A DNA stretch of 47,183 bases from an uncultured Ignavibacteria bacterium (GTDB taxonomy: Bacteria > Bacteroidota > Ignavibacteria > SZUA-365), in NCBI GenBank assembly GCA_913061095.1, contig CAJXVM010000029.1, positions 1-47,183 on the forward strand. Reading direction: 5' to 3'. Under the pieces are notes generated by a model, which saw nothing but the letters and a program-made list of their open reading frames with translations, was not told where the DNA came from and ran no database searches. Position 1 is the stretch's first letter, and each line of letters opens with the position of its first letter. A program made the position numbers and the translations under genes. This document shows positions 7,743-47,006 of the stretch, piece after piece.

Positions 7743-8686
7743 AAACGGTCTCCCTCGTGCTGGGCACCGGCGGTGCGCGCGGACTGGCGCATATCGGCGT
7801 CATCCGCTGGCTGGAGGAACACGACTACCGCATCCGCCACATCGCCGGGGCGTCGATCGGCGCCGTGATCGGCGGTATTCACGCCGCGGGCAAACTGAAT
7901 GCCTACGAGCAGTGGGTGCGCGCCATCACGCGCATGGACATCCTCACCTACCTCGACGTGGCATGGGGAAAGGGCGGCTTCGTGAAAGGCGACCGCATCA
8001 TGAACGCGCTGATCGATCTCGTCGGCGACATCGCCATCGAAGACCTCCCCATGCGCTTCACCGCCGTCGCAACCGATCTCGAAGAACACAAGGAGGTGTG
8101 GTTCACCAGCGGCCGGCTCTTCGATGCCATCCGCGCGTCGATGTCCGTTCCGCTGCTGTTCACGCCCTTCCGCATCGGCGGCGTGGATTACGTGGACGGC
8201 GGAGTGCTGAATCCCGTTCCCGTCGCCCCCGTCATGGGGGATGACAGCGATCTCATCGTCGCCGTGCACTTCGGCGGCATGACCGGCACAGGACACCCGG
8301 AACGCGTGCCGCAGAAGAAAAGCGCGGGACGCGGAACGACGCAGCCGCCTGCGGACGCGGCGTCGTCGGAAGCCGGCATGCTCCCCGACCCCGCCTCCCT
8401 GCTTCCCACGGCGATCCAGCAGCGCATCCGGCAGTTCATGCAGAAACTGCATACACCGGAGGAGGAAACCAACGGTCGCGACTGGGGCACCTACGAGGTG
8501 GCGATACAGTCGTTCGAAGCCATGCAGAACAGCATCGCCCAGCAGAAGCTCGCCGCGTATCCGCCCGACGTGCTCGTCGAACTCCCCCGCAACGCCTGCC
8601 GCACGCTCGAGTATGATCGCGCCGCGGACATGATCCGCCTGGGATATGAAACCACCGCTGAGGTGATGGATGCATCCACAGCTTGA
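7739..8686 (+). CDS. Patatin-like phospholipase
   Basis: This 315-residue protein starts with GTG inside a GTGA overlap with the MaoC-like gene. It has all three elements of the bacterial patatin family: the oxyanion-hole Gly-rich loop GTGGARG (residues 9-15), the nucleophile Ser39 in GASIG, and the catalytic Asp153 in DGG. Such enzymes hydrolyse acyl esters of phospholipids or related lipids with a Ser-Asp dyad. No signal peptide is seen, so it is probably cytoplasmic or membrane-peripheral, like the RssA/YjjU-type proteins. After the catalytic domain comes a Pro/Ala-rich insertion (~residues 185-225) and a helical C-terminus. Its end overlaps the next gene by 17 bases. Confidence 0.9.
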   Translation: MKTVSLVLGTGGARGLAHIGVIRWLEEHDYRIRHIAGASIGAVIGGIHAAGKLNAYEQWVRAITRMDILTYLDVAWGKGGFVKGDRIMNALIDLVGDIAIEDLPMRFTAVATDLEEHKEVWFTSGRLFDAIRASMSVPLLFTPFRIGGVDYVDGGVLNPVPVAPVMGDDSDLIVAVHFGGMTGTGHPERVPQKKSAGRGTTQPPADAASSEAGMLPDPASLLPTAIQQRIRQFMQKLHTPEEETNGRDWGTYEVAIQSFEAMQNSIAQQKLAAYPPDVLVELPRNACRTLEYDRAADMIRLGYETTAEVMDASTA

Positions 8687-9623
8687 AATCGCGTATTTCA
8701 TTTTCGCTTTCGCCGTGGGACTCCTATCCCTCGGCATCGCGGTGTTTTTCCACATGTCGCGTCCGGGAGCGATGCTGCGTCCTTTCCTGCTGATGTACGG
8801 CGCCTTCACGCTGATGAACATTACGAATTTCATCACTTCCTACATGCGCGCCAACATTTCCGGTTACGAGCAGCCCCTGTACTACATCCTGCTGTACCTG
8901 GAAAACCCCGTGCTTCTGATTTCAATGATATTCCTCCTGCCGCATCTGGTGCATTCGCTCGTCGCACTCGACCATGCCGAGCGACGCAGCCGCCTGTTCG
9001 GACTCATCGCGGTCGCGACCTTCATCATCTACGCGGGCATCATGTTCATCAGTGTGCGGGTGCCTTTCGGCGAGGTCGGCAGTGCGGTCAAGAACGGCAT
9101 CCTCGGGATTGTCATGCTGTATTCATGGATCGTGCTGTTCCGCCATCCACCGAAGACCCGCTCGGTGCGTCCGGAGGCGTTCCGTCGGGGCCTGTGGGCG
9201 TCGCTGCTCGTCATTCCTCTCGTCCTCCATGACATGTTCCTTCTGGAAGCGACCGGCATCAAGTTCTTCCCGCTGGTGTACGCGCTGACCGGCGTGCTGC
9301 TCGTGCGATTCTACTATATCGAATACTTCCGTGACGGCTCCGCGGCGGGTACTGCAGTGCGTCCGCCCTCCGCCGCAGATCCGGTCGCGGATGATCCGTT
9401 TCCCGAAGCGGCGCTCACCTCGCGTGGACTATCATCACGCGAAATCGAGGTCGTGCGCCTCCTCGCCGAGGGCAAAAGCTACCGGCAGATCGGTGAAGAG
9501 CTGTTCATCTCGCTCAATACGGTAAAGGCGCACATCCGCAGCATCTATCCGAAGATGGGCGTCTCCAGCCGCCATGAAATCGTACGAGAACTGCGCGGTC
9601 TGGAACGCTCCCACCCGGATTGA
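8670..9623 (+). CDS. 7TM membrane protein with C-terminal LuxR-type HTH
   Basis: The 317 residues contain about seven hydrophobic helices (near residues 7-29, 37-58, 68-95, 108-128, 140-157, 172-190 and 196-218), followed by a linker and a LuxR/GerE helix-turn-helix at about 250-312. The HTH contains LSSREIEVVRLLAEGKSYRQIGEELFIS and the recognition-helix region NTVKAHIRSIYPKMGV. It is therefore a one-component, membrane-tethered transcription factor whose seven helices presumably sense a signal in or across the membrane. The ligand is unknown. It overlaps the patatin gene, so the two are translationally coupled; a lipid-derived signal is a possible but unproven link. Confidence 0.8.
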   Translation: MHPQLEIAYFIFAFAVGLLSLGIAVFFHMSRPGAMLRPFLLMYGAFTLMNITNFITSYMRANISGYEQPLYYILLYLENPVLLISMIFLLPHLVHSLVALDHAERRSRLFGLIAVATFIIYAGIMFISVRVPFGEVGSAVKNGILGIVMLYSWIVLFRHPPKTRSVRPEAFRRGLWASLLVIPLVLHDMFLLEATGIKFFPLVYALTGVLLVRFYYIEYFRDGSAAGTAVRPPSAADPVADDPFPEAALTSRGLSSREIEVVRLLAEGKSYRQIGEELFISLNTVKAHIRSIYPKMGVSSRHEIVRELRGLERSHPD

Positions 9624-19263: not shown

Positions 19264-21180
19264 CTATTCCAGCGGGTTCATCGAGTACATCTCGGCTTCC
19301 TCATCATCATAGCCGAGTTCTTTCCAGTCGAGCACACCGCTTTCCGAATGGCAGCTCTGGCAGCTGAGCGCTCCGTCGCGGCGGACGGCATGGCTGATCT
19401 CCATCGATGCATTCGCGGGAATCCAGCGCGCCTCGACCTTGCCTTCCTTCATCTGACGAACGTCCTCATACGGACCAGTATTCCATCCCTTGATCTGCGT
19501 GCCGGATCCGTCGTCCATGAAACGCATGAACTTGTCCATCATGTAGTACTTGAACATGGTGCCGTACATCATCGGCATCATGCTCTTCTCCATTTCCTTC
19601 GCAGCCGCCTTTGAGGGATTGCCGGTACGATAGTATGTCGGCAGGTTGTACGGGACGAACATGCCACCGAAGGGACCCATGTTCTGCAGGTCGATATGCT
19701 GCTTGCCGTTGAAGACTTTCATGGCGTACAACTTCGAGGGCTTCTTTTTCGCGATCGGACGCATGACGTTCTCATACCATCCCTCGTAATCGAAATCCCT
19801 GTACTCCGGCCAGGTGTGCTGGGGTTTGTAGAAGCGGTAGAGATCCCTGCCGTTGGGATTGTCGCCGATGGGATTGCCGAGGAAGGTCGCGTCGCCGTTC
19901 CACCAGACATACGTGATGCCGGATTTCGGCTGTGTTTCCTTCTCGATATCGGTGTACACATACACGCCCGGGTGCTCTTCGTAAAAGGGCGTGTCGAAGT
20001 CGCGCATGGTGGCGTTGTCATCCTGCAGCGAGGGGATGTGACAGGTAACGCAGGCGACGCGCTCGGTGTGCATGTTCAGGAAATCCGCGAGTTCCTCGTT
20101 TTCCGCGTGTGGTTCGTCGGAATGACAGCTCGCACAGGCGATCTCGACGCCGGGAAGGTCGTTTGTCATCATCGTAGTCGTATGCGTTCCCTTGGCGATG
20201 TAATGGCCTTCGGTCACGTGACAGTCGGTGCAGTTGAGTCCCGCCGCCGCGTGCACGTCCCAGCTGGGCGAGAACGGCGTGCCGCGTTTCGAGCCCGGAT
20301 GCAGCACCCGCGGACGCTCGCGTCCGGTGTTGAGAAGACTCTGAAAGTACGACGTGTCCGTCGAATCGACGTAGATATCACCTCCGAAGTTGTGCTGATG
20401 GCAGCGCAGGCAGGTCTGGGATGTCGTGGTCGTCACCGACATCGCCGCGCGCATGCTGCGGTCCATATCCCAGCGCTTGAGTCCGTTGTCATCCATCACC
20501 ACCTGCTTGCGATTCATGTCGTAGCCCTGCGAGTGGCAGATCAGGCAGTCGATGGCGTCCTTCTCCTCCTGCGTGGTGACGTACCCAGGCATCATCTCGC
20601 CAAGCGGCGCCTGGTACTGGCCGCCGATGTGACACTGCCCGCAGCCCTCCGAAAGGGTATCGCCGTGCTCGGTGACGACGAGTTCTGCCCACGCGGTCAT
20701 GGCGAAAGAGCCGGGCTTCGGACAGGGACGGTTGATCTTGCCCATGGGAAAGTTGTCGGCAAGCTCCCCGTTGAAGCCGTAGACGTTGGGATGTTCCTCG
20801 GTGAAAAAGCGGTAATGCGTCGAAGTGAGCAGATTCTCCATCAGGCTGACGGTTTTTTCGTCGCCGCTGTGGGCGTCTTCGACCACGATGTCCTCGTGAC
20901 AGGACAGGCAGGTCTGCGGTCCCTCGTATGCCGTGATTCCCGCTTCGCGGAAGATTTCCACATGCATGAAGTCCATGTCGAATTCGGATTCGAGATCCGC
21001 GGCGATGCGGTCGAATTCCTCCGCGCTGACGCGGTGGACGTCGAAGGTGATCTGTCCGGGACGACTGTCGGCGGGCATCATCATGTTGATGAGCGTTGAG
21101 CGGTTCGTCCAGCCGAGAACGGCGATGAGGGGAAGAATAACGATCAGGGAAAGAAGAAATGTGCGGGTCCGTTTTGACAT
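19264..21180 (-). CDS. Octaheme c-type cytochrome, tetrathionate-reductase (OTR)-like family
   Basis: The 638-residue protein has an N-terminal signal anchor (residues ~8-24) and eight CxxCH heme sites at residues 91, 180, 212, 257, 317, 349, 377 and 607. The spacing and the segments DCLICH, DVHAAAGLNCTDCH, CASCHSDEPH, LNMHTERVACVTCHIP and GITYVWWNGDA resemble the octaheme tetrathionate reductase family. Those periplasmic enzymes can reduce tetrathionate and, in vitro, nitrite or hydroxylamine. The real substrate here is unknown. The last heme site lies more than 200 residues after the seventh, so the C-terminal part is long. No quinol-oxidising partner or cytochrome maturation gene is adjacent. 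The ATG is preceded by GGAG. Confidence 0.85.
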   Translation of the reverse strand: MSKRTRTFLLSLIVILPLIAVLGWTNRSTLINMMMPADSRPGQITFDVHRVSAEEFDRIAADLESEFDMDFMHVEIFREAGITAYEGPQTCLSCHEDIVVEDAHSGDEKTVSLMENLLTSTHYRFFTEEHPNVYGFNGELADNFPMGKINRPCPKPGSFAMTAWAELVVTEHGDTLSEGCGQCHIGGQYQAPLGEMMPGYVTTQEEKDAIDCLICHSQGYDMNRKQVVMDDNGLKRWDMDRSMRAAMSVTTTTSQTCLRCHQHNFGGDIYVDSTDTSYFQSLLNTGRERPRVLHPGSKRGTPFSPSWDVHAAAGLNCTDCHVTEGHYIAKGTHTTTMMTNDLPGVEIACASCHSDEPHAENEELADFLNMHTERVACVTCHIPSLQDDNATMRDFDTPFYEEHPGVYVYTDIEKETQPKSGITYVWWNGDATFLGNPIGDNPNGRDLYRFYKPQHTWPEYRDFDYEGWYENVMRPIAKKKPSKLYAMKVFNGKQHIDLQNMGPFGGMFVPYNLPTYYRTGNPSKAAAKEMEKSMMPMMYGTMFKYYMMDKFMRFMDDGSGTQIKGWNTGPYEDVRQMKEGKVEARWIPANASMEISHAVRRDGALSCQSCHSESGVLDWKELGYDDEEAEMYSMNPLE

Positions 21181-33868: not shown

Positions 33869-36800
33869 CTACCGCATCAACACCATCTTCCGCACGAGCA
33901 CGACGTCCGGTGTTTCCAGTCGATAGAAATACACCCCCGAAGGCAACCCGCTCGCATCGAACCGGACAGAGTGCGTGCCAACGGCCAACTGCTCACGGCC
34001 AACAGCCCTATTCACCTCACGTCCCAGCGCATCGGTGATGACGAGCGACACCTCCGTCTCACGCGGTAACGTAAAGCGGATCGTCGTTATGGGATTGAAC
34101 GGATTCGGGTAGTTCTTGTGCAGAATGCAGGACGCCGGCAGCTGCCCGGATGCTCTGACGGTTGTCGTGGTATCTCGGAGTGGAACCGCGATTGTCCGTC
34201 GATCGATGAAGCTGCGACCGCCAGTCTCGAGAACGGCACTCAATGTCACGTGTGTGACGCTTCCCGCAATGTCTACGTCCATGCTGTCGCGCATTGAAGC
34301 ACTCGGCTGCAGCGAACCGAGAGAGAATTCGTTCTCACCCACTATTGTGACTCCACTGCTCAGGAAATCGAGTGTCGTCCGGGCATCGCTCGCTTCCCCA
34401 CCACCGACATTCTGCACGGTAAAGTGGATTCGGTGTCGCTCGGGACCCGCCGCTTCGTCGCGTATGATGCCGGCGTTCGTCAGCGAGAGTGCGGGCAGTG
34501 AGATAATACTCCGCGCGCCGCTGATCATATCTTCGATCACATTCTGCGCATTACTGAACGGACCAATGATCGAATCGATTTCTGCCACCAGGGCAGTCTG
34601 CTTCTGTGTGGTGGGCGCCAGCATGTAGTCGGCCAATGCAACCGAAAGCACGGTACGCCGCGTTTTCAGCAGTTGCATGCGGGCGAGCGAGTAATAGTAG
34701 TCACTGAGCAGCACTTCATCCCCGTAAAGGTGCACGCGATTCACGCCGAGCAGCGGACGCAGCAGGCGGTCCACCTCCGACACCATCGCTTTCCCGCTCG
34801 TGCGCAGTTCAGTGAACGCGTCACTGATGTACCCGGTATTTCCCTGCTCAACCTCTGTACGGAGACTCTGCAGCCTCGCGAAGTCCGCGTCGATCACAGG
34901 ATTGTCCGCGGGAACAGCTGCCTTCCGGAAAACCGACAGTGGATCTTTCCGCTGCACAATACCGCCAAGCTGCGGATCGAAAATCTTTTCTGCGGTGACG
35001 TCGAGCGCGGAGGGAACAGATCCAAGATCCTTTACCGCATCCAGTGAGGTGAGATAGAGAAAGCGTTCGGTGGGAATCACGGCATTGGCGAGTGCCATGT
35101 ACATGTTGTCGGTCAGACGCGGACGCAGGCCCTTCACTCGCAGCAGGAAGATGTCGGCATCAACGCCCGGCGTCTGTCCGATGGTATATGCCGCATCCAG
35201 GCTCGTGGAAATCCGATAGTAGTCACTGAAGGCCGCGCCGAGTGCATCGATATCCATTCGCAGATTTGTGAGATATGCATCACGTGTACCTTCAGCAACG
35301 GCTTTTGTACCGTCGTAGTCCAGCTGCTCGGTGCGATCCGCATACTCGGCGATCAGCGGCTGCGTAGCGGGCAGATAATACCGTCCGAGCATCAGCTCCT
35401 TCCAGTAGTCGAGTAGCGACAGCATGAGCCCGGCATCGAGATCCTCCACCTCGCCCCTGCCGCGAATGATATCGTCTGTCAGCGTACTCAGCTCACTGCC
35501 GCGATCGGCTCCCATGAGCATAAGGAGCTGCCGCGTATTGTCGCTCAGGGCGAGGACCATGTCTTCCATGGCAGCGTCGACATGTTCATTGTCCCCGGTG
35601 AGATAGGCGCGTTCACTCTTCCAGGCGAGTGCGAGTGCCGTGAGATCCTTCGTCGCAATGGCCGGGATGCGGCCGCACTGCATGGCAAGGTCCTGCACGC
35701 CCGGTATGGGTGGCATGGACTCGTCGTCGCCCCAGCTTTCCCGCAGCGCCTCTTCGACCAGTAAGTAGCGTTCCATGGCTTCGGCGGCCTTTGCCGGATC
35801 GGATGCGCCCGTTGTGCTCCATTCCGTAATAAGGTCCGTTGCGGCGGACTCGTCATATCCGCGAACATAATCGCCGATCAGGTTGCGCAGCGTCTGCATC
35901 TCTGTGCTGCCGTTTGGTATTAGCGTCTTCACCTGGCTGATCACCTGCCGCTTGCCATCCATCGCCGCGCGGAGTTCCGGCGTGACGATGACTTTCTGAG
36001 TCGTGGCGTTCACGACGGGTGTCCATGATGAACTACCGTGCATATTGTACGCAAGAATGCGGTAATAATACGTGGTGTTGACCGTGAGCCCACTGTCGAT
36101 GTAGCTGCGATCACCCTGCCCGGGAGCGGGTGAAAGCTCCGTAAAGTCACCTGTGTCCCCGGTCAGCGAGCGCACAAGCGTGAAGCCGTCTTCGTTCGAC
36201 TGCGCGGGCATCTCCCAGTCCAGCTGAATCTGTGATTCGGAAAGGGCCGCGGCCGTGAAATTGCGAGGCGTGGATGGATAGTCAGCCCGCGACGTCCGCG
36301 CACTCGCGGTATTCGAGTACGGGGACGGTCCCGACCGGTTCACCGCACGAATGCGGAAGAAGTACTCCGTGTCGGGCTGCAATTGATCGACCACGATCGT
36401 CCGCGCATCTGCCTCTGCATCGGGCGAAACGCGGGAGAAACTGCCCGGATCACCCGTCACCGACAGCTCGATCTCGAATGATTCTGCAGTCGACGGGGAA
36501 GGCATGATCCAGGAGAGCTGTATCGAAGCCGGTCCTGTCGCTTTCGCCTGCAAACCGAAGGGGCCGTCCGGCACGGGGATATCCATCGTGGTCGCGCTGT
36601 CCACGTTCGACCACTGTGAATATCCCTGATCGTTCCCGGCGCGGACACGGTACCAGTAGGTTGTGGTGATCGAGAGATTTTCATCAAGAATATCGCCGTC
36701 ACCGGGACCTGCGGTCGTGAGCTGTGCCCAGTCACCGCCAATCTCCCTGCGCTCGACTTCGAATCTGTCCTCATTTTCCGATCCTCGCTGCCAGGTAATG

Positions 36801-39800
36801 CGGATTGAACGGTGATCCACGGCCATGGCTTGCAGGTTCAGCGGCTTCGACGGCATCATCCGTGTTTCGATGGCGATGACATTCGAATACCCGGATGCCG
36901 ATCCGTCGCCAATCGCACGAACACGGAAACGATTCATTGTTCGGGGAGTGAGTCCCTGCACGTCATACACCGTCGCATTGGCAGCTGCCGTATGGATCCT
37001 CTGCCAGTCACCGTCGTCCTCACGATGCTCGATCTCATACCCGGTTTCCCCGTGCGTGTTGTCCTCCCAGTTGAGAACGATGTTCGTCTCCGACATCAGC
37101 ACGCCGGAGAGATTGGTTGGAGCGCCGAGGAATTTCAGCGTTGTGGCCTGGGCGATGTTCGAGTAGGGAGACTCAACCCGCGATGTAAAGGCGTGAATTC
37201 GAAATTCGTAGGATGTGGACGGTTGAAGACCGCCAATAATATGCTCCGTGGTATTTTCCGATGCGGTATCCACAATCGACCACGATTCTCCCACCTTGCG
37301 AAGTTGAATGATAAAACCATTTTCGCCGTTCGTCTTATCTCGCCAGATCAGATTGATCTCTTCCGATGAGTGGGGGGTTGCTGTAAGATCGCTCGGCGGT
37401 GAGAACGGCAATGTTGTCAACGCTATGGTGTTTGAGTACGGAGACGAGACTGTGCCTTCAACCGCTTTGACCCTAAAAGAGCTTTCCGTTTGTGGTGACA
37501 ATCCAGAGATTCGAGTAACCGTCATATTCTTCATTGTTGTATCGACTGGTATCCAACTGCTTCCACCCTCAGATTTCTCGACAACAAACCGATCCTCACT
37601 GGATGAATTGTCCCGCCAACTGAGCACCACATAGCTGAAGGCAAGGCTGTCACCAGCGAGATCGCTCGGCGCGTTGAAGTTCGGGGTCGTCACTGAAGCG
37701 GTGTTTGTGTACGCTGATTCATACTGCGCATTCACCGCCCGGACTCTGAACATGTGTTCCGTATCGTATCCGAGGTTGGACAGGATACGTGTATGCGAAT
37801 CTGCTGAGGCGTTTTCGATGTTTGTCCATGTGGTGCTGCCGGTTTTGTGTTCTATCTCAAACTGATCTTCGTTATCGGAATTGTCGGTCCAATCAAGTTG
37901 CACCGTGGTGGGAGATAGAGCTTGTGCGGTCAGATTTGTCGGAGCAGCTGGGGGTAGCACGACAGATCCACTCAGTGAGAGGTGAAGAATAAATCCATCG
38001 AAAGAGCCTCCGAGTGTGGCTTGGTGCGCATTCACAACGGGGAAGTCCGTGCTTTCTGTATTCCCGACAACAAAAAGATTTCCGTTTGGATCAATAACTT
38101 CAGAAAGCCCACCGTCAACTTTGCTGCCTCCATAATACGTTGATGATGCAACTACTCCGTTTGAGGTCAATTTGACGATGCAGATATCAGCATCTCCTTT
38201 CAGTGACGATTGTATCGGATTGAGAAGGGGAAAATCAGGACTAAACGTCTCACCAGAAACAATGATATCTCCACCCGACGTAACATCAATACAGCCTTTG
38301 TTCACATAGTCCCCTTCACTACCTCCCCAGTAGGTTGCCAGTTCAAGGGAACGTCCGTTTGCAGGATTTGCTGTTGCACCATACTTGCAGAGATAGATAT
38401 CGACACTTCCTGCCAGGGTTGATTGAACGGGATTTAATAGTGGCATATTTGAGCTGGAACACCTCAAACCAACATATAATGCCCCCTGTTGATCAGACGT
38501 GACAACCATGCCTGTCTCGGCAGCGTTCCCAGCGATATATGAGGACCAGTGTAAAACGCCGGATGTATCGTACTCTGTGATGAAGGCATCGATCGCATTG
38601 CCCTGGAAAGTACTCTGCAAAGCGTGCTGCAGGGGGAAATCAGGACTTGCGGTGTTGCCACAAACTGCAACCGTATGCTGAGGAGTTACAACGCACGACT
38701 GGATGCCTTCGTTGCCGCTCCCACCCAAATATGTTGCCCAGCATAACGATCCGCTGCCTGTAAACTTTGCCAGGAATGCATCCCGCGCGCCGCCTGGAGC
38801 CGACTGCTGTGCATGCTTCACTTGAAGGTCCGTGCTCTGTGTAGTATGACAGATGTATGCATTGCCAGATGCATCTACCGAGAGTCCTCCTCCCCCGCCA
38901 GTTCTGTACCCATCATTGCCGTCCTCACCACTGCCGCCGAAAAACGTAGCCCAGCTTGGTACGCCACTGGAACTGAACTTGATCAGGAATGTGTCTGCCG
39001 CACCAGAAAGTGAACCCTGAAGCGCGTTGTGAACGGGGAAATTGCTGCTTTCTGTTTTACCGGTCAGAAAAACATTGCCCAACACATCGATTCTGACACT
39101 TCCCGCTCCATCATCGCCAGATCCTCCATAGTAAGTTGCCCAGATCAATTGTCCGCTGTTGCTATACTTGACTACAATGGCATCGTCATTTCCACCAGAT
39201 GACAGCTGGGTTCCTGACTGCACAGGGAAATCGGCACTTTCGGTCCATCCTGCTGCATATACATTTCCCATGGCGTCACAGCCAACGCTATTGAAATGTT
39301 CATATTCTGTCCCTCCATGATAGGTCGCCCATGGATCAATGATAAGTGTTTCCGTTCGATCATAGTCTGCAACGTCGAACGATGCGGTTTGTCCATGGAC
39401 GAGATACCTCGTTGGAATACGTTTGCCACCTCCTATCCAGCTGACTGGTTCGCTTTCTTCCAAACGCCCCAGAGGCGTATCAACATGCATCTCCCCCTTC
39501 GAAAGAACTCGACACCGAGACGCTCCTTCATATTTCATCCGAATATGATTTGGGTCACCTCCAGGACGAACCATGAATTCAGATTTCACCCGTCCACCAA
39601 CAGTACTCAATCTCATATCGATCTGAGGATAAATATCTTTGAGGATCAATCCTTCGTAGCTGCGAACATTTCGGATGCCTTCAGGACAATGTGCGAGGTA
39701 GAAATGCATTACCCCTTCAAGCACTTTTGTTGGTGAGACTCTGGCAAATGGATTTCCCCCTTCGAACGTGAGATCCACCCGATACACCTCACGCGAATGC

Positions 39801-40177
39801 CCGGACTCGATACCGTTGACCTGTACCTCACTTACATCGAGGGCAGCTCCCTGCTCGGGATCAGGGATATGTGAGAACACGTAACTGATACCTGTTGAAC
39901 GCACATAGATTTTAACACCTGCTGCATCGGCAGCGTAGAGAATATCCGGACATAGATTGCCGTCGGTGTCAACGATCTGCCCACTGTTTTCGGTAAACCG
40001 GATTGGCAGCCTCTGAATGTCATTCTCAGGCGAAGCACTTGTGGTGCTCCCAATGAGGCTCCCGTGGCTCGATGCATGAATCATCAAGTTGGGCAGCCCA
40101 AAAAGAAACAAAACAGTTAGGATTGCGAACCGCAGGTTTAAGTCCAGTGTAACTTGAGTACTGTTGATCTGGTTCAT
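33869..40177 (-). CDS. Giant T9SS surface protein: SBBP repeats, seven Fn3 domains, sorting domain
   Basis: The ATG at 40177 (AGGAG six bases upstream) gives 2102 residues with a signal segment at ~15-36. Residues ~55-280 are the N-terminal domain that often precedes SBBP repeats (FTENSGQIV...). About seven SBBP beta-propeller repeats follow (~283-740; TYYGGSGDD, NVYAAGWTESADFPV). Seven fibronectin type III domains span ~742-1397 (APTNLTA, APSDLAG, SPPSDLTA, and so on). A ~600-residue mostly helical part and a T9SS type A domain with NYPNPFNPITTIRF follow, ending GVYFYRLETPDVVLVRKMVL. It is presumably an adhesin or surface-layer-like protein. DNA of the SBBP part is near 48% GC in samples, against 57-63% in the 3' part, so the gene looks mosaic. 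It begins 16 bases after the response regulator gene. Confidence 0.93.
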   Translation of the reverse strand: MNQINSTQVTLDLNLRFAILTVLFLFGLPNLMIHASSHGSLIGSTTSASPENDIQRLPIRFTENSGQIVDTDGNLCPDILYAADAAGVKIYVRSTGISYVFSHIPDPEQGAALDVSEVQVNGIESGHSREVYRVDLTFEGGNPFARVSPTKVLEGVMHFYLAHCPEGIRNVRSYEGLILKDIYPQIDMRLSTVGGRVKSEFMVRPGGDPNHIRMKYEGASRCRVLSKGEMHVDTPLGRLEESEPVSWIGGGKRIPTRYLVHGQTASFDVADYDRTETLIIDPWATYHGGTEYEHFNSVGCDAMGNVYAAGWTESADFPVQSGTQLSSGGNDDAIVVKYSNSGQLIWATYYGGSGDDGAGSVRIDVLGNVFLTGKTESSNFPVHNALQGSLSGAADTFLIKFSSSGVPSWATFFGGSGEDGNDGYRTGGGGGLSVDASGNAYICHTTQSTDLQVKHAQQSAPGGARDAFLAKFTGSGSLCWATYLGGSGNEGIQSCVVTPQHTVAVCGNTASPDFPLQHALQSTFQGNAIDAFITEYDTSGVLHWSSYIAGNAAETGMVVTSDQQGALYVGLRCSSSNMPLLNPVQSTLAGSVDIYLCKYGATANPANGRSLELATYWGGSEGDYVNKGCIDVTSGGDIIVSGETFSPDFPLLNPIQSSLKGDADICIVKLTSNGVVASSTYYGGSKVDGGLSEVIDPNGNLFVVGNTESTDFPVVNAHQATLGGSFDGFILHLSLSGSVVLPPAAPTNLTAQALSPTTVQLDWTDNSDNEDQFEIEHKTGSTTWTNIENASADSHTRILSNLGYDTEHMFRVRAVNAQYESAYTNTASVTTPNFNAPSDLAGDSLAFSYVVLSWRDNSSSEDRFVVEKSEGGSSWIPVDTTMKNMTVTRISGLSPQTESSFRVKAVEGTVSSPYSNTIALTTLPFSPPSDLTATPHSSEEINLIWRDKTNGENGFIIQLRKVGESWSIVDTASENTTEHIIGGLQPSTSYEFRIHAFTSRVESPYSNIAQATTLKFLGAPTNLSGVLMSETNIVLNWEDNTHGETGYEIEHREDDGDWQRIHTAAANATVYDVQGLTPRTMNRFRVRAIGDGSASGYSNVIAIETRMMPSKPLNLQAMAVDHRSIRITWQRGSENEDRFEVERREIGGDWAQLTTAGPGDGDILDENLSITTTYWYRVRAGNDQGYSQWSNVDSATTMDIPVPDGPFGLQAKATGPASIQLSWIMPSPSTAESFEIELSVTGDPGSFSRVSPDAEADARTIVVDQLQPDTEYFFRIRAVNRSGPSPYSNTASARTSRADYPSTPRNFTAAALSESQIQLDWEMPAQSNEDGFTLVRSLTGDTGDFTELSPAPGQGDRSYIDSGLTVNTTYYYRILAYNMHGSSSWTPVVNATTQKVIVTPELRAAMDGKRQVISQVKTLIPNGSTEMQTLRNLIGDYVRGYDESAATDLITEWSTTGASDPAKAAEAMERYLLVEEALRESWGDDESMPPIPGVQDLAMQCGRIPAIATKDLTALALAWKSERAYLTGDNEHVDAAMEDMVLALSDNTRQLLMLMGADRGSELSTLTDDIIRGRGEVEDLDAGLMLSLLDYWKELMLGRYYLPATQPLIAEYADRTEQLDYDGTKAVAEGTRDAYLTNLRMDIDALGAAFSDYYRISTSLDAAYTIGQTPGVDADIFLLRVKGLRPRLTDNMYMALANAVIPTERFLYLTSLDAVKDLGSVPSALDVTAEKIFDPQLGGIVQRKDPLSVFRKAAVPADNPVIDADFARLQSLRTEVEQGNTGYISDAFTELRTSGKAMVSEVDRLLRPLLGVNRVHLYGDEVLLSDYYYSLARMQLLKTRRTVLSVALADYMLAPTTQKQTALVAEIDSIIGPFSNAQNVIEDMISGARSIISLPALSLTNAGIIRDEAAGPERHRIHFTVQNVGGGEASDARTTLDFLSSGVTIVGENEFSLGSLQPSASMRDSMDVDIAGSVTHVTLSAVLETGGRSFIDRRTIAVPLRDTTTTVRASGQLPASCILHKNYPNPFNPITTIRFTLPRETEVSLVITDALGREVNRAVGREQLAVGTHSVRFDASGLPSGVYFYRLETPDVVLVRKMVLMR

Positions 40178-40193: not shown

Positions 40194-40847
40194 TCAGATA
40201 TGCTCTTTGTGCTGCAGTGCAAATCGCTGAAGCGAGTAGTGGCCGGAGAGATCAAGTTTATGACTGATATTTGTGCGATGTTTTTCCACGGTTTTCATGG
40301 CAATAGAAAGCTGCTCAGCTATTTCATTCGTCGTCATATCTTTCGCGACAAGCCGGAGGACGCGCCGTTCCGAAGTGGTGAGCTTCAGGAGTCCCAGACG
40401 CTGCTGGATCTCGTTATTCAAGCCGGGCGGTTCTTTCGTGATACGGCTGTTCAGTCGTGGACTGACATAACACTCTCCGTCAGCAACCGTCTGTATCCCG
40501 TTCACAATATCGTCGATGGCCGTTTCCTTTATCAGATAGCCCATCGCACCGAGATCCATTGCACGGAGATATAATCGCTCGTCTTCATAGATCGTGAGGA
40601 TCAGGACCGAGGTCGGGAGATCGTCCTCGCATATCTTTTCTGTCACATCGAGACCGTTCATCTTCGGCATATCGAGATCGAGGACCGCGACTGTTGGCAT
40701 TTCCTTTCTGATGAGCCTCAAGGCAGCCTCGCCATCACCCGCTTCCGCCACAACACGCATGGTGGTCTCCATTTCGATGATATCGCGAAGTCCGTGTCGA
40801 AAGATGGGGTGATCGTCGGCTATAACGACGGTGATCAGGTCAGGCAT
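40194..40847 (-). CDS. NarL/FixJ-type response regulator
   Basis: The start at 40847, with GGGAGG just upstream, gives 217 residues. The receiver domain has the acidic pair DD (11-12), the phospho-accepting Asp57 (VLDLDMP), the Thr in LTIYED and the conserved Lys (GYLIKE). The C-terminal LuxR-type helix-turn-helix has LTTSERRVLRLVAKDMTTNEIAEQLSIAMKTVEKHRTNI. It is a complete, phosphorylatable transcription activator. Its start overlaps the histidine kinase stop by 8 bases, so the two form a cognate pair. The giant surface protein gene follows after 16 bases, which suggests that the pair and the surface protein share one transcript and perhaps that the pair controls it. Confidence 0.95.
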   Translation of the reverse strand: MPDLITVVIADDHPIFRHGLRDIIEMETTMRVVAEAGDGEAALRLIRKEMPTVAVLDLDMPKMNGLDVTEKICEDDLPTSVLILTIYEDERLYLRAMDLGAMGYLIKETAIDDIVNGIQTVADGECYVSPRLNSRITKEPPGLNNEIQQRLGLLKLTTSERRVLRLVAKDMTTNEIAEQLSIAMKTVEKHRTNISHKLDLSGHYSLQRFALQHKEHI

Positions 40848-43794
40848 GTGGCCTCCCGCTTTCCTCTTTTTCCAGAGGCTGCTGCTCACTCACACCCTCG
40901 GGGACTGCGATCGGGATAAAAATCTCAATGGCAGTTCCGTTCCCCGGTGCAGATCGGAGATTGAGATTTCCGCCGAGAATATCCACGCGTTCGTACATTC
41001 CCTGCAGGCCGAAGCCCTTTGGTGCTTCGCTCTGGGACGGTTTTTCTTCCATCGCAATTCCTTTCCCATTGTCGTGGATCTCGATACGGAGATGACCGTT
41101 GCGCCGTCCGACATGCACGGTGGCATGTGTCGCACCGGAATGCTTGAGGATGTTGTTCACCGCTTCCTGTACGACACGATAGATATTGATTTCCTGATCC
41201 TTCGTGAACCAACCCGCCATCTGTACAATGTCCCATATAAATGCCGTATCACTGACGTCGTTCACGCTGCTGAGCATGGCTTCAATCGCAGTCGACAGTC
41301 CGATGCGGTCGAGATACAGCGGTCGCAGCGCGCGCGAGATATCTTTCAATTCATGCAGTGAACCGGTAACTGCACTCGAAATCATGTTGAGTTCCTGTAC
41401 CGTTTTCCGGTCGACATCATCACGTCTTGCGGTGAGCCGCACACGGTTGTTGATGATAAGCAAGTCCTGCGCGATGCTGTCATGCAGATCAGCGGCAATC
41501 CGCTTGCGTTCCTGTTCCTGGGAAGCGATCAACTGTCGGGTGAAGGCTTTTCGTCTTTCATAATCCTCCTGCTTTTTCTCAACTGCCAGTCTCCGGTTCT
41601 CCTCCTCGGCTGCACGAGCCCGGGCATCGCTCGCACGCCGCCGGGCACGAAGTGCGGATATTGCAATAAAAGCGATCAGCAGGATGGCGATCGAACTGCC
41701 GACAAAGATGTTTCGCAGCATCGTCTCCCTTTCAAGGGAGGCCGTTCGCAGCTGTCGATCCTTTTTCAGCAGATCGATTTCTTGGGTTTTGCGCTCGGCT
41801 TCCATTTCCTTACCTCGCAGGGACGCAGCCGTCATGTCCAGCTCAAGCTGGCGGATTTCCGCATTACGCGCGAGTAGTTCGAGATCCTGTTGATGCTGCT
41901 GCGCTTCGAGCTGTTTGCGACGCAGCACCTCTGTCTGACGCTCAATCTCGAGGCGCTGACGCTCCTGTTCGGAAGACAGCAGCGCAATCTGGTGGTCTTT
42001 TCGTTCCGCGTCGAATTCCACGAGCAGGCTCTGATATCGTGCATTCCGCATGGCGGTGGTGACACTGTCTTTTAGCTGCCTGTAGTTGCGCCAGTGTGCG
42101 TTTGCAACAGCATGCTTGCCGGCTTCTTCCGCCAGTTCCGCCCGGAGCGCCACCGTACGCATCAGGATTTCATCTTTCCCGATGTTTTCAGCGAGATGCT
42201 CCGCCTCGGAAAGCAATGGTTCGATGCCATTCGTTTTTCCACGTGCGTGCCGGCATTCCGCAAGCCAGACGAGATCCGTCGCCAGCCGGCTGTGTACTTT
42301 CATGTTGCGGTGAGCTTCAGCCGCAGCGGCAAGGTTCTGCTCCGCTTCTTCCAGGCGATCTGTGTGAAATTGCACCCTCCCCAATTCCTGTCTGATATTC
42401 GCGGTAACTTCCGCAAGCTTTGCACCTTCGCTTATCGCGAGTGCTTCCTCCAACAAATGCTCCGTCGCTGTGACCGAATCCAGTTTCATCAGTACCGGTG
42501 CCAGACTGACCAATGCACGGCAGATTTCCGCCGGTTTACCGATATCGCGAAACATCCCCAGCGAACGCGAGAGAAAATGATGCGCCCGGTCAAGGCGCTC
42601 CAGTTCGAAATATGACCACCCGAGATCACGGAAAACCAGCGCCTGTCCTTCTCGATTTCCAAGATCGTCATAGATTGCTGACGCTTTCCGAAGATTATCA
42701 ATCGCCTCCATGTATCGACCGAGAGATCGTGCATTCGTACCGATCATGCGGTAGCAATGTGGCTTCAATGACGCAGTAATTTGATGATCCCGGGAAAATG
42801 TCGTTTCTGTGAGTACCAGTCCCTCGGCGTACAGGTTCATGCTCTCTTCATATTTTCCCTCAAGATTGAGCATCCCGGCAATATTCGTCAATGCCTGGGA
42901 GATGAGAATCGGATTTCCATTCGCTTTCGCGAGATCGTAAGCCTGGCGCAGGGCTTGTTCCGCTTCTTTGGTTCGCCCCATGTCATTGAGGACAGAAGAT
43001 AAATTATTGTACCCTCTCGACTGGTGTTCTGTATCCCCGAGTTCATCCGCGAGCTGGATACACTCCCGGAAGCACTGTGCGCTGGCCTCGAGCCGACCAT
43101 TTCTGGCGTGGAGAAAACCGATGTTGGTCAGTGCGCTCGATCTGATGTACAGATTCCTTGCACTGTCGGCAGCTGCAATGCTACGTCGATACAGGGAAAT
43201 AGCCTCACGATGTCTCCCCTGCAGCTGAACTGTAGCGGCAAGATAAAAAAGACAGGGAGCGAGATTTTGATATGAACGATGACGTTCGTACAGGTCCGCA
43301 CTCTTCCGGTACCGCTCCTCCGCAGCTGGGAAATCTTTCAGTACCTGCGGGAGAGGAGCCCGTTGGATTGCAAATCCCACATGAAAAAGGCTGGAGGCCA
43401 TACCGAGTTCATCGTTCAGCGATTCGAATCTCTCCAGCGCACGCTCAAACCAGGGCAGCGCCTGCACCGGCAGTTTATGAAGCTCATATACATAGCCGAT
43501 ATTCCAGTATGCCCGCGCCTCATGAAGGACATCATGAGTCTCCAGCGATGTCCGCAACACCGCGTGCATCTGCGAAAGTGCCGTCGCGGTATCATCGCAT
43601 GCAATGCGACTTGCCCTTGCGAGCAGCGTATCCGGGTTGGTTTCTTCCAGCTGTTTCATCTGTGCAGTAGCGGAAAACATCTCCATACCGCAGCAGCACA
43701 GTAGGAAACCAAGGGCCAGACGCGTCGTCGTCTCAATGAGTGCACACATACGCGGGCGTATGCAGCGCATGCCATCGTATATTCTGTCCATCAT
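40840..43794 (-). CDS. TPR-containing sensor histidine kinase (NarL family, HisKA_3)
   Basis: The start at 43794 follows GGAGG and gives 984 residues. A hydrophobic N-terminal segment (LALGFLLCCCGMEMFSATAQ) exports the sensor part. Residues ~45-540 are a series of about ten or more tetratricopeptide repeats (AYWNIGYVYELHKLPVQALP and similar). A coiled coil (~570-690) leads to one transmembrane helix (~695-715). The dimerisation domain has QERKRIAADLHDS with phospho-accepting His771, and the ATPase domain has VVQEAVNNILKHSGA, DNGKG and GFGLQGM. It resembles the Bacteroidota TPR-kinases in which the periplasmic repeats bind proteins or peptides. The partner response regulator is encoded downstream with an 8-base overlap. 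Confidence 0.95.
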   Translation of the reverse strand: MMDRIYDGMRCIRPRMCALIETTTRLALGFLLCCCGMEMFSATAQMKQLEETNPDTLLARASRIACDDTATALSQMHAVLRTSLETHDVLHEARAYWNIGYVYELHKLPVQALPWFERALERFESLNDELGMASSLFHVGFAIQRAPLPQVLKDFPAAEERYRKSADLYERHRSYQNLAPCLFYLAATVQLQGRHREAISLYRRSIAAADSARNLYIRSSALTNIGFLHARNGRLEASAQCFRECIQLADELGDTEHQSRGYNNLSSVLNDMGRTKEAEQALRQAYDLAKANGNPILISQALTNIAGMLNLEGKYEESMNLYAEGLVLTETTFSRDHQITASLKPHCYRMIGTNARSLGRYMEAIDNLRKASAIYDDLGNREGQALVFRDLGWSYFELERLDRAHHFLSRSLGMFRDIGKPAEICRALVSLAPVLMKLDSVTATEHLLEEALAISEGAKLAEVTANIRQELGRVQFHTDRLEEAEQNLAAAAEAHRNMKVHSRLATDLVWLAECRHARGKTNGIEPLLSEAEHLAENIGKDEILMRTVALRAELAEEAGKHAVANAHWRNYRQLKDSVTTAMRNARYQSLLVEFDAERKDHQIALLSSEQERQRLEIERQTEVLRRKQLEAQQHQQDLELLARNAEIRQLELDMTAASLRGKEMEAERKTQEIDLLKKDRQLRTASLERETMLRNIFVGSSIAILLIAFIAISALRARRRASDARARAAEEENRRLAVEKKQEDYERRKAFTRQLIASQEQERKRIAADLHDSIAQDLLIINNRVRLTARRDDVDRKTVQELNMISSAVTGSLHELKDISRALRPLYLDRIGLSTAIEAMLSSVNDVSDTAFIWDIVQMAGWFTKDQEINIYRVVQEAVNNILKHSGATHATVHVGRRNGHLRIEIHDNGKGIAMEEKPSQSEAPKGFGLQGMYERVDILGGNLNLRSAPGNGTAIEIFIPIAVPEGVSEQQPLEKEESGRPHA

Positions 43795-43803
43795 TGAACC
43801 TCC

Positions 43804-43825
43804 ACTCCGCACACTCAGGCGGAGT
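43804..43825 (-). promoter_or_regulatory. Hairpin in the kinase mRNA leader next to the ribosome-binding site
   Basis: ACTCCGC (43804-43810) and GCGGAGT (43819-43825) can pair with an 8-base loop directly before the GGAGG of the histidine kinase. It might influence translation initiation, but it could be accidental. Confidence 0.3.
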
Positions 43826-43889
43826 CATCGGGAGAATTAATTTGACTGGTAGTACTCGGAAACTACGCCATTTATCACATAAGAGTCAA

Positions 43890-43936
43890 AAAGACCTGAT
43901 ACCCGCAGACAGGGTTTAAAAAGACGCCTCAGCATC
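43890..43936 (-). terminator. Possible weak terminators after the ELWxTDGT protein gene
   Basis: On the minus strand GATGC-TGAG-GCGTC is followed by TTTTTAAA. Somewhat later CCTG...CAGG is followed by TCTTTTTG. Both stems are short, so some read-through into the kinase gene is likely. Confidence 0.35.
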
Positions 43937-43988
43937 CCTCTCTCATGCGGCGGAAATTTCGCCGTTGAACGGGCACAGATCCAAAGGA

Positions 43989-46307
43989 TCACTGGACGCA
44001 CACCATGTGATGTGCGACGGTCGTGCCGGTTTTCAACTCCAGCATATACATCCCTGCCGGGAGATCGCCTCGTGTAAACCGTACGAAATGCGTTCCCCTT
44101 TCGTACTTGCCTTCCCTGACCGAGATGATACCGCGACCCAGTACATCGAACAGGCGCAGCGACACCTGTTGCGCATTTCGAAGAGAGAAACGCACAACTG
44201 CAGAGGAGGTAACTGGATTCGGGGTAACGGAATTCAGGGCAGCGGACGATGGTCTGATTGGGTTCTGTTTGAGTGCGCCTTCGCACGCTGTCGTGACAAC
44301 GTTCATCGATGATTCGTATGTCCATCCCGCCGCCACGACATCGGTGACGGTAAAACACCAGGTCCCTACCGGGCTTCGCTCCTTTCCGGTGCACACGAGG
44401 ACCTCGCCGTTCTCATCCGTCGTGCCCGAAACCGTCCCGGAGGTGGGACCACTATACGTCGCGTGAACCAAGACACCACCGACAGGCGAATTGCTGTCGT
44501 CCCAGACACGAATCACATCCTCCGCCCGATATTTGTTCCCCGGCTGCAGGACTCGGGTCACCGTTTGATCGGCGACATAGACGTATCCACTCGAGGCCGG
44601 TGAAACTGTGATACTGACATCATCAGCAGCAGCGGTACTGTTGTTGTCGGTCACGGTAAGCTGGGCCGTGTATGTACCTGCCGTGCTATAGGTGTAGGTC
44701 GGATTCATCAGCGTTGAGAATCCACTTCCGTCACCAAAATCCCAGAAATATGCAGTGATGCTGCCATCGGGATCATAGGATCCGCTCCCATCGAAGGTCA
44801 CCGTTAGGGGTGCCGCCCCTGTCGACGGGGACGCTGCCGCCACCGCGACGGGCGGCTGATTCCCGCTCAGACACAGCGACCACCATTCGTTTCCATAGGA
44901 GGGGTGATAGGCGGTAAACAGCAGACTGCCGTTCAGCACTGTGAGATAATGCGGTGAGGATCCCTCGCCGGCCGTGGGATTGATGTCGGCCAGTTTGATT
45001 GTCCCCGCCGAAGTCCCGTCGCTCTCGAATAATTCATAGCCGTCGCCATCATCCGCAGCAAAGAACAGCTTGTTTCCCAGAATGGTAAACCGCCGCCAGT
45101 AATCCTGCGCATTCGTAACCTGCGGACGAAGAAGTAGGTCATAGTTTGGATTCGAGCTGTTGGATCCGGGAGCGATATCCGCCACCTGCACCGTTCCAGC
45201 ATTTGTCCCATCGGATCTCCACAACTCACGGCCCCCATCATCCGACCAGGCGGAGAAAAACAGTGTCCCGTCCACGGGTGTCAGCCAGATCGGTTCAGAA
45301 TCGGCCGAACCACCCGCGATATCCTTCACCATGGTCGCGGGGCCGCCTGTCAGCGGATACTTCCACAATTCCATCCCGTTTATGCCGTCATCGGCAGCGA
45401 AATACAGCACACCGCTCATCTCGACAAAGAAGTTCGGGAAGGATGATCCTGGGCCGGGATTGATGTCCGCCACCTGTCCGGTTCCTGCTGCAGTGCCATC
45501 GGTTCGCCACAGCTCCTCGCCCGTGATCCCGTCGGATCGTGCAAAATACCATACACCGTTTATTCCGACCGGGAAGATTTTCGATGCGTAGATGACCCGT
45601 TCGACCGTTGTCGGATAGTAATCGACCTCGCAGTTACCCACTGAACATATGTCGAGAATCAGATTTGTTCCCTGGCCTGTCCCGTCACTTATCCACGGCT
45701 CCTCTCCTGTCGAGCCGTCTCCCGCGAACAGGAGCAACCGGTTCCCTGCCGTGGTGATGTTTTCGACGACATCGAACCTTGCGCCGGTCGCTCCCGTGCC
45801 ACTCGCCGTGCCGTCGGTCTTCCAGAGCTGCGTCTCGACGCTCGAGTTCACAAGACGGGCGACAGTGTAGGTGAAGTATACGTCGGATGCCGTGGCGCAG
45901 AGATGCCATGCCGACTTGCTGCGGTTTTTTCCCACGGCCAGATCGTGGAGCTGTACGGTACCGGAAATCGTTCCGTCACTTACCCAGGGATCTGATCCCG
46001 GTTCAACTCCATTATTCGCTACGAAGTACAGCTTGTCGTGAAGCGTAACGATATGGTCCGGATCCACGTCTTTCACCATCCATGTACCGACAGCTGTCCC
46101 GTCCGTCCGCCAGAGCCTGTTTCCTGAACCGTCGTTCCCGTCAAAGTAGAGAACGCCGCTCAGTACATCGCGGCAGGTCAGAATCTGCACAGCGTCGTCA
46201 ATGCTCGGATTGATGTTTTTAACAAGTACTGGGGTCTGTGCCTGTATCGGAGATACTGTCAGCATCAGGACGGCAAGCAGTTCAATACACGTTGATTTTC
46301 TCATCAT
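43989..46307 (-). CDS. T9SS-exported protein with ELWxTDGT repeats and a PKD domain
   Basis: The ATG at 46307 (GGAG upstream) gives 772 residues with a signal peptide (STCIELLAVLMLTVSPIQAQ). Residues ~35-475 hold at least eight repeats of the [EGN]x[LP]W-[RKIV]-[ST]-DGT-x2-GT type (NRLWRTDGTAVGT, TQLWKTDGTASGT, EELWRTDGTAAGT, RELWRSDGTNAGT), alternating with LYFxADDG strands; such ELWxTDGT repeats form propeller-like domains in surface proteins. A PKD domain follows at ~478-566 (YDPDGSITAYFWDFGDGS), then an unassigned beta domain with CTGKE, and a T9SS type A sorting domain (SVTPNPVTSSAVVRFSL, LFDVLGRG). It should be exposed on the cell surface. It precedes the histidine kinase on the same strand by 194 bases. 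Confidence 0.92.
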   Translation of the reverse strand: MMRKSTCIELLAVLMLTVSPIQAQTPVLVKNINPSIDDAVQILTCRDVLSGVLYFDGNDGSGNRLWRTDGTAVGTWMVKDVDPDHIVTLHDKLYFVANNGVEPGSDPWVSDGTISGTVQLHDLAVGKNRSKSAWHLCATASDVYFTYTVARLVNSSVETQLWKTDGTASGTGATGARFDVVENITTAGNRLLLFAGDGSTGEEPWISDGTGQGTNLILDICSVGNCEVDYYPTTVERVIYASKIFPVGINGVWYFARSDGITGEELWRTDGTAAGTGQVADINPGPGSSFPNFFVEMSGVLYFAADDGINGMELWKYPLTGGPATMVKDIAGGSADSEPIWLTPVDGTLFFSAWSDDGGRELWRSDGTNAGTVQVADIAPGSNSSNPNYDLLLRPQVTNAQDYWRRFTILGNKLFFAADDGDGYELFESDGTSAGTIKLADINPTAGEGSSPHYLTVLNGSLLFTAYHPSYGNEWWSLCLSGNQPPVAVAAASPSTGAAPLTVTFDGSGSYDPDGSITAYFWDFGDGSGFSTLMNPTYTYSTAGTYTAQLTVTDNNSTAAADDVSITVSPASSGYVYVADQTVTRVLQPGNKYRAEDVIRVWDDSNSPVGGVLVHATYSGPTSGTVSGTTDENGEVLVCTGKERSPVGTWCFTVTDVVAAGWTYESSMNVVTTACEGALKQNPIRPSSAALNSVTPNPVTSSAVVRFSLRNAQQVSLRLFDVLGRGIISVREGKYERGTHFVRFTRGDLPAGMYMLELKTGTTVAHHMVCVQ

Positions 46308-46411
46308 CGCTTCTCCACTCACAATTGCATGATCACATGTATGAATTGACGTATTCCATTACATTATGAACCCGGATTCCTTCGTGTTCCTTGTCGCATT
46401 GCTCAGGTGGC

Positions 46412-46768
46412 TTATTCCGTCGCCGGCTGTCTCATGAGGTATTCCTGAACTTCGATCATATCCTCCTTCATGAAATACGCCTCCGCGCCGGCGTCGAACG
46501 CATCCGTGCGGATGGGTAGATCATCCTCCTCCGTTACGAAGATCCATCGAACAGCGGGATCAGAACGCAGGACGGATTTAAGCGTTTCGATGCCGTCCAG
46601 ACCGGGGAGGCTGATCTCCGAGAGAACCAGGTCCGGCTTCCGGTGAGTATAAAGCGTGATCGCCTCCTCACCACTGCCGCATTCGACGACGTCATCGCAG
46701 AGCCCGGAAAGCAGCTGACGGAGCGTTGTCCGCATGCCGCTGTTCTCATCCAGGATCATGATACGCAT
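46412..46768 (-). CDS. Receiver-only protein with Glu at the phosphorylation site
   Basis: The 118-residue protein is a single CheY-like receiver domain, with GGAGG before the ATG. The acidic pair is D7-E8, the Thr/Ser switch is in FVTEED and the conserved Lys is in YFMKED. The phospho-accepting Asp is replaced by Glu51: the codon is GAG in the strand LVLSEISLPG, where D-x-x-[ML]-P is expected. Such a change can mimic the phosphorylated state or abolish regulation by phosphorylation. No output domain is present, so it may act through protein contact, possibly with the kinase encoded two genes downstream; this link is inference. Confidence 0.9.
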   Translation of the reverse strand: MRIMILDENSGMRTTLRQLLSGLCDDVVECGSGEEAITLYTHRKPDLVLSEISLPGLDGIETLKSVLRSDPAVRWIFVTEEDDLPIRTDAFDAGAEAYFMKEDMIEVQEYLMRQPATE

Positions 46769-46843
46769 GTCATCGCCTCCAGACGGAGATCTGTGCTACG
46801 GGGTGACTCTGCGAAATAATTTGAGGGAATCGCTTTCAGGCGC

Positions 46844-46868
46844 AATAAGGGGTATCCCTTATTTTTCT
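46844..46868 (+). terminator. Hairpin followed by T-rich stretch
   Basis: AATAAGGG-GTAT-CCCTTATT is followed by TTTCT. It has the shape of a terminator on the plus strand, though no gene precedes it there. On the minus strand it lies about 75-95 bases before the receiver gene and could be an operator. Confidence 0.5.
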
Positions 46869-46996
46869 AAAACACTGCCGCTGAGCTCTTTGCTAACATT
46901 CTCTTAGAAGGCAGAGCAGGGCTTAATAGAGCTTCACTGAAACCCGAGTTGAGCTGAAACGAGCAGGGGCACACACCGATCGTGGTGTGTGCCCCT
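46864..46996 (+). ncRNA. Possible small RNA ending at a strong terminator
   Basis: About 130 bases between the hairpin at 46844 and the terminator at 46966-46995 have no ORF. They can fold in part (GCTCT...AGAGC), and CTGAAAC occurs twice, each followed closely by CGAG. A free-standing terminator of this quality usually ends a transcript, so a small RNA is plausible. No known RNA family is recognised. Confidence 0.3.
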
Positions 46997-47006
46997 GTAT
47001 TTTGTT
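46966..47006 (+). terminator. Strong Rho-independent terminator
   Basis: GGGGCACACACC (46966-46977), loop GATCGT, GGTGTGTGCCCC (46984-46995) form a perfect 12-bp stem followed by TGTATTTTGTT. The T-rich side shows that it works on the plus strand. Confidence 0.9.

Follow-up and report, generated by a model that had tools for sequence, protein, structure and literature searches.

How are the genes for individual surface proteins controlled in a bacterium that exports many of them? Bacteroidota-type bacteria send many proteins to their surface via the type IX secretion system (T9SS), and to our knowledge the control of individual T9SS cargo genes in these organisms is largely unknown outside oral pathogens. 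The question is raised by a 47,183-nucleotide contig from an uncultured Ignavibacteria bacterium (CAJXVM010000029.1, referred to here in its entirety as the window), whose minus strand carries five consecutive genes encoding a stand-alone receiver (REC), an ELWxxDGT T9SS protein (ELW), a TPR histidine kinase (HK), a NarL-type response regulator (RR) and a giant surface protein (giant). Our analysis indicates that this cluster is likely to be one of several paralogous copies of a surface-protein cassette specific to the family, in which a two-component system resembling FimS/FimR would activate its own operon. The many copies across the family are preceded by a matching DNA control site, which makes it probable that every set of surface proteins is served by a dedicated sensor.

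Indeed, parts of the cassette recur in the window's own genome (G000, 4.61 Mb) at C11, C38, C18, C19, C8, C4 and C1. Genome-wide, G000 contains 15 GerE-domain loci, 17 kinase-core genes, 13 DUF7948 matches, at least 150 sorting-domain proteins and 11 matches to HELC, a helical region of the giant. Within this genome, a TPR kinase is found no more than 5 kb away for five of the six ELW genes but for only 5 of the 138 remaining sorting-domain proteins (p = 3e-6), and giants with HELC are likewise found near TPR kinases (4/11 within 5 kb, p = 0.002; 7/11 within 15 kb, p = 4e-5). The association of the cluster parts thus exceeds chance. A first-pass annotation of the window had proposed that kinase and regulator belong with the surface genes, and this is borne out by recurrent gene order, co-variation and shared operators. 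Moreover, pairs of TPR kinase and NarL-type regulator do not regularly occur without such genes, since 10 of the 11 pairs in G000 have T9SS surface genes in their cluster.

The cassette also recurs in at least six relatives (metagenome-assembled genomes labelled Ignavibacteria or Bacteroidetes). For example, G004:C361 has the exact REC-ELW-HK-RR-giant order, the giant is divergent from REC-ELW-HK-RR in G000:C11, G003:C69 and G009:C128, and rearranged forms are found in G007:C83, G011, G001 and G008, while ELW is absent from the cassettes G011:C81 and G004:C332. Across cassettes, the pairwise distances of HK correlated with those of RR (r = 0.80), ELW (r = 0.67) and REC (r = 0.60; p = 1e-4 for each), and weakly with those of the giant (r = 0.28, p = 0.012), whose position varies. 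Therefore, REC-ELW-HK-RR forms the core of the cassette and the giant is an exchangeable partner, its loosest member. Within the stretches examined, 16 ELW regions of other families contained no pair of TPR kinase and NarL-type regulator. DUF7948 was considered as a marker of the cassette and discarded, as DUF7948 proteins lacking Fn3-HELC are mostly located away from TPR kinases.

The second line of evidence is a candidate operator, a palindrome 95 nt upstream of the REC ATG that is identical in G004:C361 at -96. When these two loci are compared the alignment stops upstream of the palindrome and the 70 bp from the palindrome towards the gene align, such that the palindrome marks the 5′ edge of conservation. 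It is unique in its genome: no other copy was found in the 4.6 Mb with up to 3 mismatches. Similarly built 20-bp palindromes, with the approximate consensus AATRGGYA-N4-TRCCYATT, occur in other cassettes ahead of REC, ELW, HK or the giant, often in pairs. A matrix built without the window site revealed, above a threshold of 13 bits, 34 non-training sites (32 intergenic) across 724 kb of cassette DNA; the other DUF7948 regions, 30 in number and 611 kb in total, gave a single site, and reversed sequence gave none. A TAnnnT hexamer is located exactly 21 bp past the palindrome in 16 of 51 cases, whereas other offsets average 0.39 (p about 7e-22); in the window itself the hexamer is AATTAT and the spacing 22 bp, versus mostly 21 bp in other cassettes. 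Given this fixed distance to a -10-like hexamer, the palindrome is predicted to overlap the -35 region, the usual position for an activator. In G003:C69 and G009:C128, one palindrome, accompanied by a -10-like hexamer, is oriented towards the giant and a second one towards the REC operon. Half-site type tracks the recognition helix of the local RR across 20 cassettes (r = 0.49, p = 1e-4), and both the window and G004:C361 combine the unusual helix AMKTVEKHRTN with the unusual AATAAGGG half-site. The first-pass annotation had pointed to promoters upstream of 46768, 46307 and 43794; a candidate site was found upstream of the first and of neither of the other two. The possibility that the palindrome is the terminator of an upstream gene was rejected, as no plus-strand gene in the window reads into it and the conserved stretch carries on downstream as a promoter.

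Turning to the signalling proteins, HK begins with a signal-peptide-like N-terminus, followed by a TPR array, a transmembrane segment near residue 706, and HisKA_3 and HATPase domains, so that the array is flanked by the transmembrane segment and, on its N-terminal side, by an export signal recognised by eye. Its catalytic motifs (LHD with the His, and the N and G boxes) are intact, and RR has the phosphoacceptor Asp (LDLDMP). An automatic motif search had suggested a cassette kinase without the His, which was dismissed when the alignment revealed that every cassette kinase is intact. HK is presumed to transfer phosphate to RR, its adjacent, overlapping and co-varying partner. In sequence, the TPR region resembles the peptide-binding arrays of LGN and kinesin light chain, and a search for relatives of the kinase in named genomes found none. 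Between the window and G004:C361 the orthologous kinases are 40% identical and the regulators 80%; the faster change of HK would fit changing ligands, whichever signal the kinase reads.

In REC only the phosphoacceptor is altered (Asp to Glu at residue 51) and the remaining active site is intact. The first-pass annotation was thus correct that the phosphorylatable Asp is missing, but its label of pseudo-receiver does not hold; we likewise rejected a degenerate receiver, as the loss of several active-site residues was not observed. The Glu is common to the window and G004:C361, and every other stand-alone receiver that is clearly in a cassette keeps the Asp. Conservation in two species argues for a functional rather than a decayed protein, in which Glu perhaps mimics a phospho-like state.

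Both surface proteins are predicted T9SS-exported cargo, as each contains a C-terminal type A sorting domain (TIGR04183) over the model cut-off. The second gene of the cluster specifically encodes a beta-rich ELWxxDGT protein (TIGR04534: 333 bits, cut-off 65, E 8e-102) with PKD and sorting domains, and the matches to its structure model were mostly beta-propeller-containing, with low global agreement. The giant includes, in HELC, a helical region of about 570 residues without a Pfam match. HELC was present in 9 of 12 genomes of the family, with matches to metagenome-assembled genomes labelled Ignavibacteria and Bacteroidetes, and elsewhere gave one weak match among 294 genomes of the class; by these searches it is confined to this family. 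Foldseek returned nothing for its fold at E <= 0.001, and a closer aligner matched residues 362-501 to vinculin/FAT-type helical bundles (Z about 11), a result common for helical bundles. In G007:C83 (22259-23099), broken HELC remnants with several in-frame TAG stops lie beside both an intact cassette and a second, near-identical receiver gene; this arrangement suggests recent duplication and decay. In G003:C69 (L101 2652-9059) the giant adjoining a window-like RR is split by a frameshift or an error of assembly into two open frames (about 660 and 1452 aa), and the RR-giant spacing is short there too.

The gene order, strand, overlap and spacing given by the first-pass annotation were all confirmed on the sequence, as were the domains of the five genes, to which the ELWxxDGT identity and HELC are added here (Table 1). 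HK and RR overlap by 8 nt (stop at 40840, ATG at 40847), and the 16-nt spacer between RR and the giant carries AGGAG. A terminator at 40.18-40.19 kb would have separated the giant from the two-component genes; no terminator-like hairpin or dyad is present in this interval, and co-transcription of kinase, regulator and giant is therefore plausible. A single transcript of these three genes, as originally proposed, stands as plausible, with the tie of the giant to be qualified: it is the loosest member by correlation (0.28 versus 0.67 for HK-ELW), and in G004:C361 it starts about 115 nt past the regulator. The GC-rich hairpin upstream of the candidate operator is likely the upstream boundary of the transcript.

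Table 1. Coordinates in the window of the cassette genes and associated features.
Feature	Position	Strand	Description
REC	46412-46768	-	118 aa; stand-alone receiver, Asp to Glu at residue 51
ELW	43989-46322	-	777 aa; GTG start, ATG at 46307; ELWxxDGT, PKD, T9SS sorting domain
HK	40840-43812	-	990 aa; GTG start, ATG at 43794; TPR, HisKA_3, HATPase
RR	40194-40847	-	217 aa; ATG start; receiver and GerE, NarL/LuxR-type
Giant	33869-40177	-	2102 aa; ATG at 40177; DUF7948, SBBP, 7 Fn3, HELC, T9SS sorting domain
HELC domain in giant	34301-36007	-	~570 aa, helical
Candidate operator palindrome	46844-46863	-	perfect 8-4-8 palindrome, AATAAGGG-ATAC-CCCTTATT
-10-like hexamer AATTAT	46816-46821	-	22 nt after palindrome; same in G004:C361
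Strong GC-rich hairpin	46963-46998	.	upstream of candidate operator

From these observations we infer a self-activating circuit. The kinase, with its TPR array predicted to be periplasmic, would sense a signal and phosphorylate the adjacent NarL-type regulator, which would bind the 20-bp palindrome overlapping the -35 region and activate the promoter ahead of REC-ELW-kinase-regulator-giant. Activation would raise the level of the regulator itself together with both T9SS-exported surface proteins. Several points weigh against this reading. The window palindrome scores only 6.7 bits with the matrix of the other cassettes, and is therefore a divergent member whose inclusion rests on symmetry, position and conservation. 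Once related cassettes are collapsed, helix and site covary less strongly (r = 0.28, p = 0.06), and the 176-nt gap between ELW and the kinase leaves room for a separate promoter. Furthermore, the relatives' cassettes were collected through DUF7948, ELW and HELC searches, and counts among them are not unbiased because they were found by searching for cassette parts; the test within the window's own genome is free of that selection. Finally, strong sites occur away from cassettes, at C4:127503, C5:17806 and C8:133400, which implies distant targets for at least one such regulator. These three G000 sites share a near-constant palindrome, AATRGGTAGTACTACCYATT, and adjoin small secreted proteins or a lipoprotein; similar sites are found in G001-G004, as if one such regulator had a scattered regulon in the genus.

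The palindromes might instead be bound by another regulator, with the neighbouring one acting on other targets. Similar palindromes upstream of a few non-cassette genes and the non-significant collapsed test would fit this explanation, but the sites are concentrated in cassettes and their type tracks the recognition helix of the local regulator, and we regard it as unlikely. Far less credible still is the idea that T9SS proteins and TPR kinases, both abundant in this genome, became neighbours by chance. The presence of 17 kinase-core genes and no fewer than 150 sorting-domain proteins speaks for it, but it is contradicted by the kinase-proximity, co-variation and palindrome tests, and by the five-gene order kept in a second species.

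Two further proposals concern the signal. The TPR domain might detect an external peptide or nutrient, with the surface proteins, as adhesins or binding proteins, being mere output; we put the chances of this at about even, and it is compatible with the self-activating circuit, to which it supplies the signal. FimS/FimR is the same circuit, and substitutions in the periplasmic TPR of FimS change fimbria expression (PMC11053733). Many paralogous kinases with divergent TPR parts would also fit many ligands, given the slower change of the orthologous regulators, but an external ligand alone leaves the co-variation of ELW and kinase unexplained. Alternatively, following the first-pass annotation, which had the array sense export or assembly, the periplasmic TPR domain might bind precursors of ELW or the giant en route to the T9SS, so that the kinase would report on this process and the regulator would adjust supply. 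After RR, ELW is indeed the best co-varying partner of the kinase, the TPR region resembles peptide-binding arrays, and a partial precedent exists in PorA, a T9SS sorting-domain protein that feeds PorXY-SigP signalling (PMC7712824). Nevertheless, co-inheritance would produce the same co-variation, and ELW is missing from two cassettes, leaving such export sensing rather doubtful. More speculatively, each cassette could be an insulated feedback unit, with exported ELW as the kinase's ligand or export reporter, regulator and operator co-diverged to avoid paralogue cross-talk, and the Glu receiver fixed in a phospho-like state in the window lineage, re-tuning the loop; this combination we consider improbable. 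The many paralogous copies allow operators, regulators and targets to be read side by side, and therefore parallel two-component specificity and kinase sensing of T9SS cargo are directly testable. The cassette likewise offers an entry point to giant surface proteins that contain an undescribed domain.

Elsewhere in the window, a membrane-bound regulator of LuxR type is encoded at 8670-9623 (+); its 317 residues include at least six hydrophobic segments and, at the C-terminus, a GerE domain. After one intervening gene, a beta-lactamase-fold gene follows. Positions 19264-21180 (-) encode a multihaem cytochrome that weakly matches MtrC/MtrF-like domains and is flanked by an M16 peptidase and a guanylate/adenylate cyclase.

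Among known systems the closest likeness is to FimS/FimR of Porphyromonas gingivalis, in which FimR binds the mfa1 promoter directly (PMC1974823, PMC11053733) and an outside ligand has been proposed for FimS (PMC11053733). Both pair a sensor kinase carrying a periplasmic TPR domain with a regulator that activates surface genes, as we would expect here. However, the output of FimS/FimR is fimbriae whereas that of the cassette is T9SS propeller and Fn3 giants. The cassette differs further in being present in multiple copies, in including a stand-alone receiver and an ELW gene, and in having palindromes specific to each paralogue. Against the FimS model, whose cut-off is 600 bits, the window kinase reaches 98 bits, and it is FimS-like in its working rather than FimS. 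Similarly, PorX/PorY-SigP with PorA ties two-component control to the T9SS, the sorting-domain protein PorA there feeding the signal (PMC7712824). PorXY acts via a sigma factor on the secretion machine, whereas the cassette regulator is NarL-type and its predicted targets are cargo genes. In LuxR activation, a GerE-type helix-turn-helix binds the lux box, a 20-bp palindrome that covers the -35 region some 42-44 bp ahead of the transcription start. The candidate operator resembles this site in length, predicted position and presumed binding by a GerE-type helix-turn-helix, but the cassette regulator is a receiver-domain protein, and sequence and gene targets differ. In the literature on ELWxxDGT, DUF7948, SBBP with T9SS, and TPR kinases with T9SS we found no description of such a cassette, which agrees with the first-pass statement that no system of this composition was known, although the FimS/FimR circuit is of the same kind. 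The cassette belongs, then, with FimS/FimR as a circuit; what the literature searched does not describe is its T9SS cargo, its stand-alone receiver and ELW, its multiplication and its operators specific to each paralogue.

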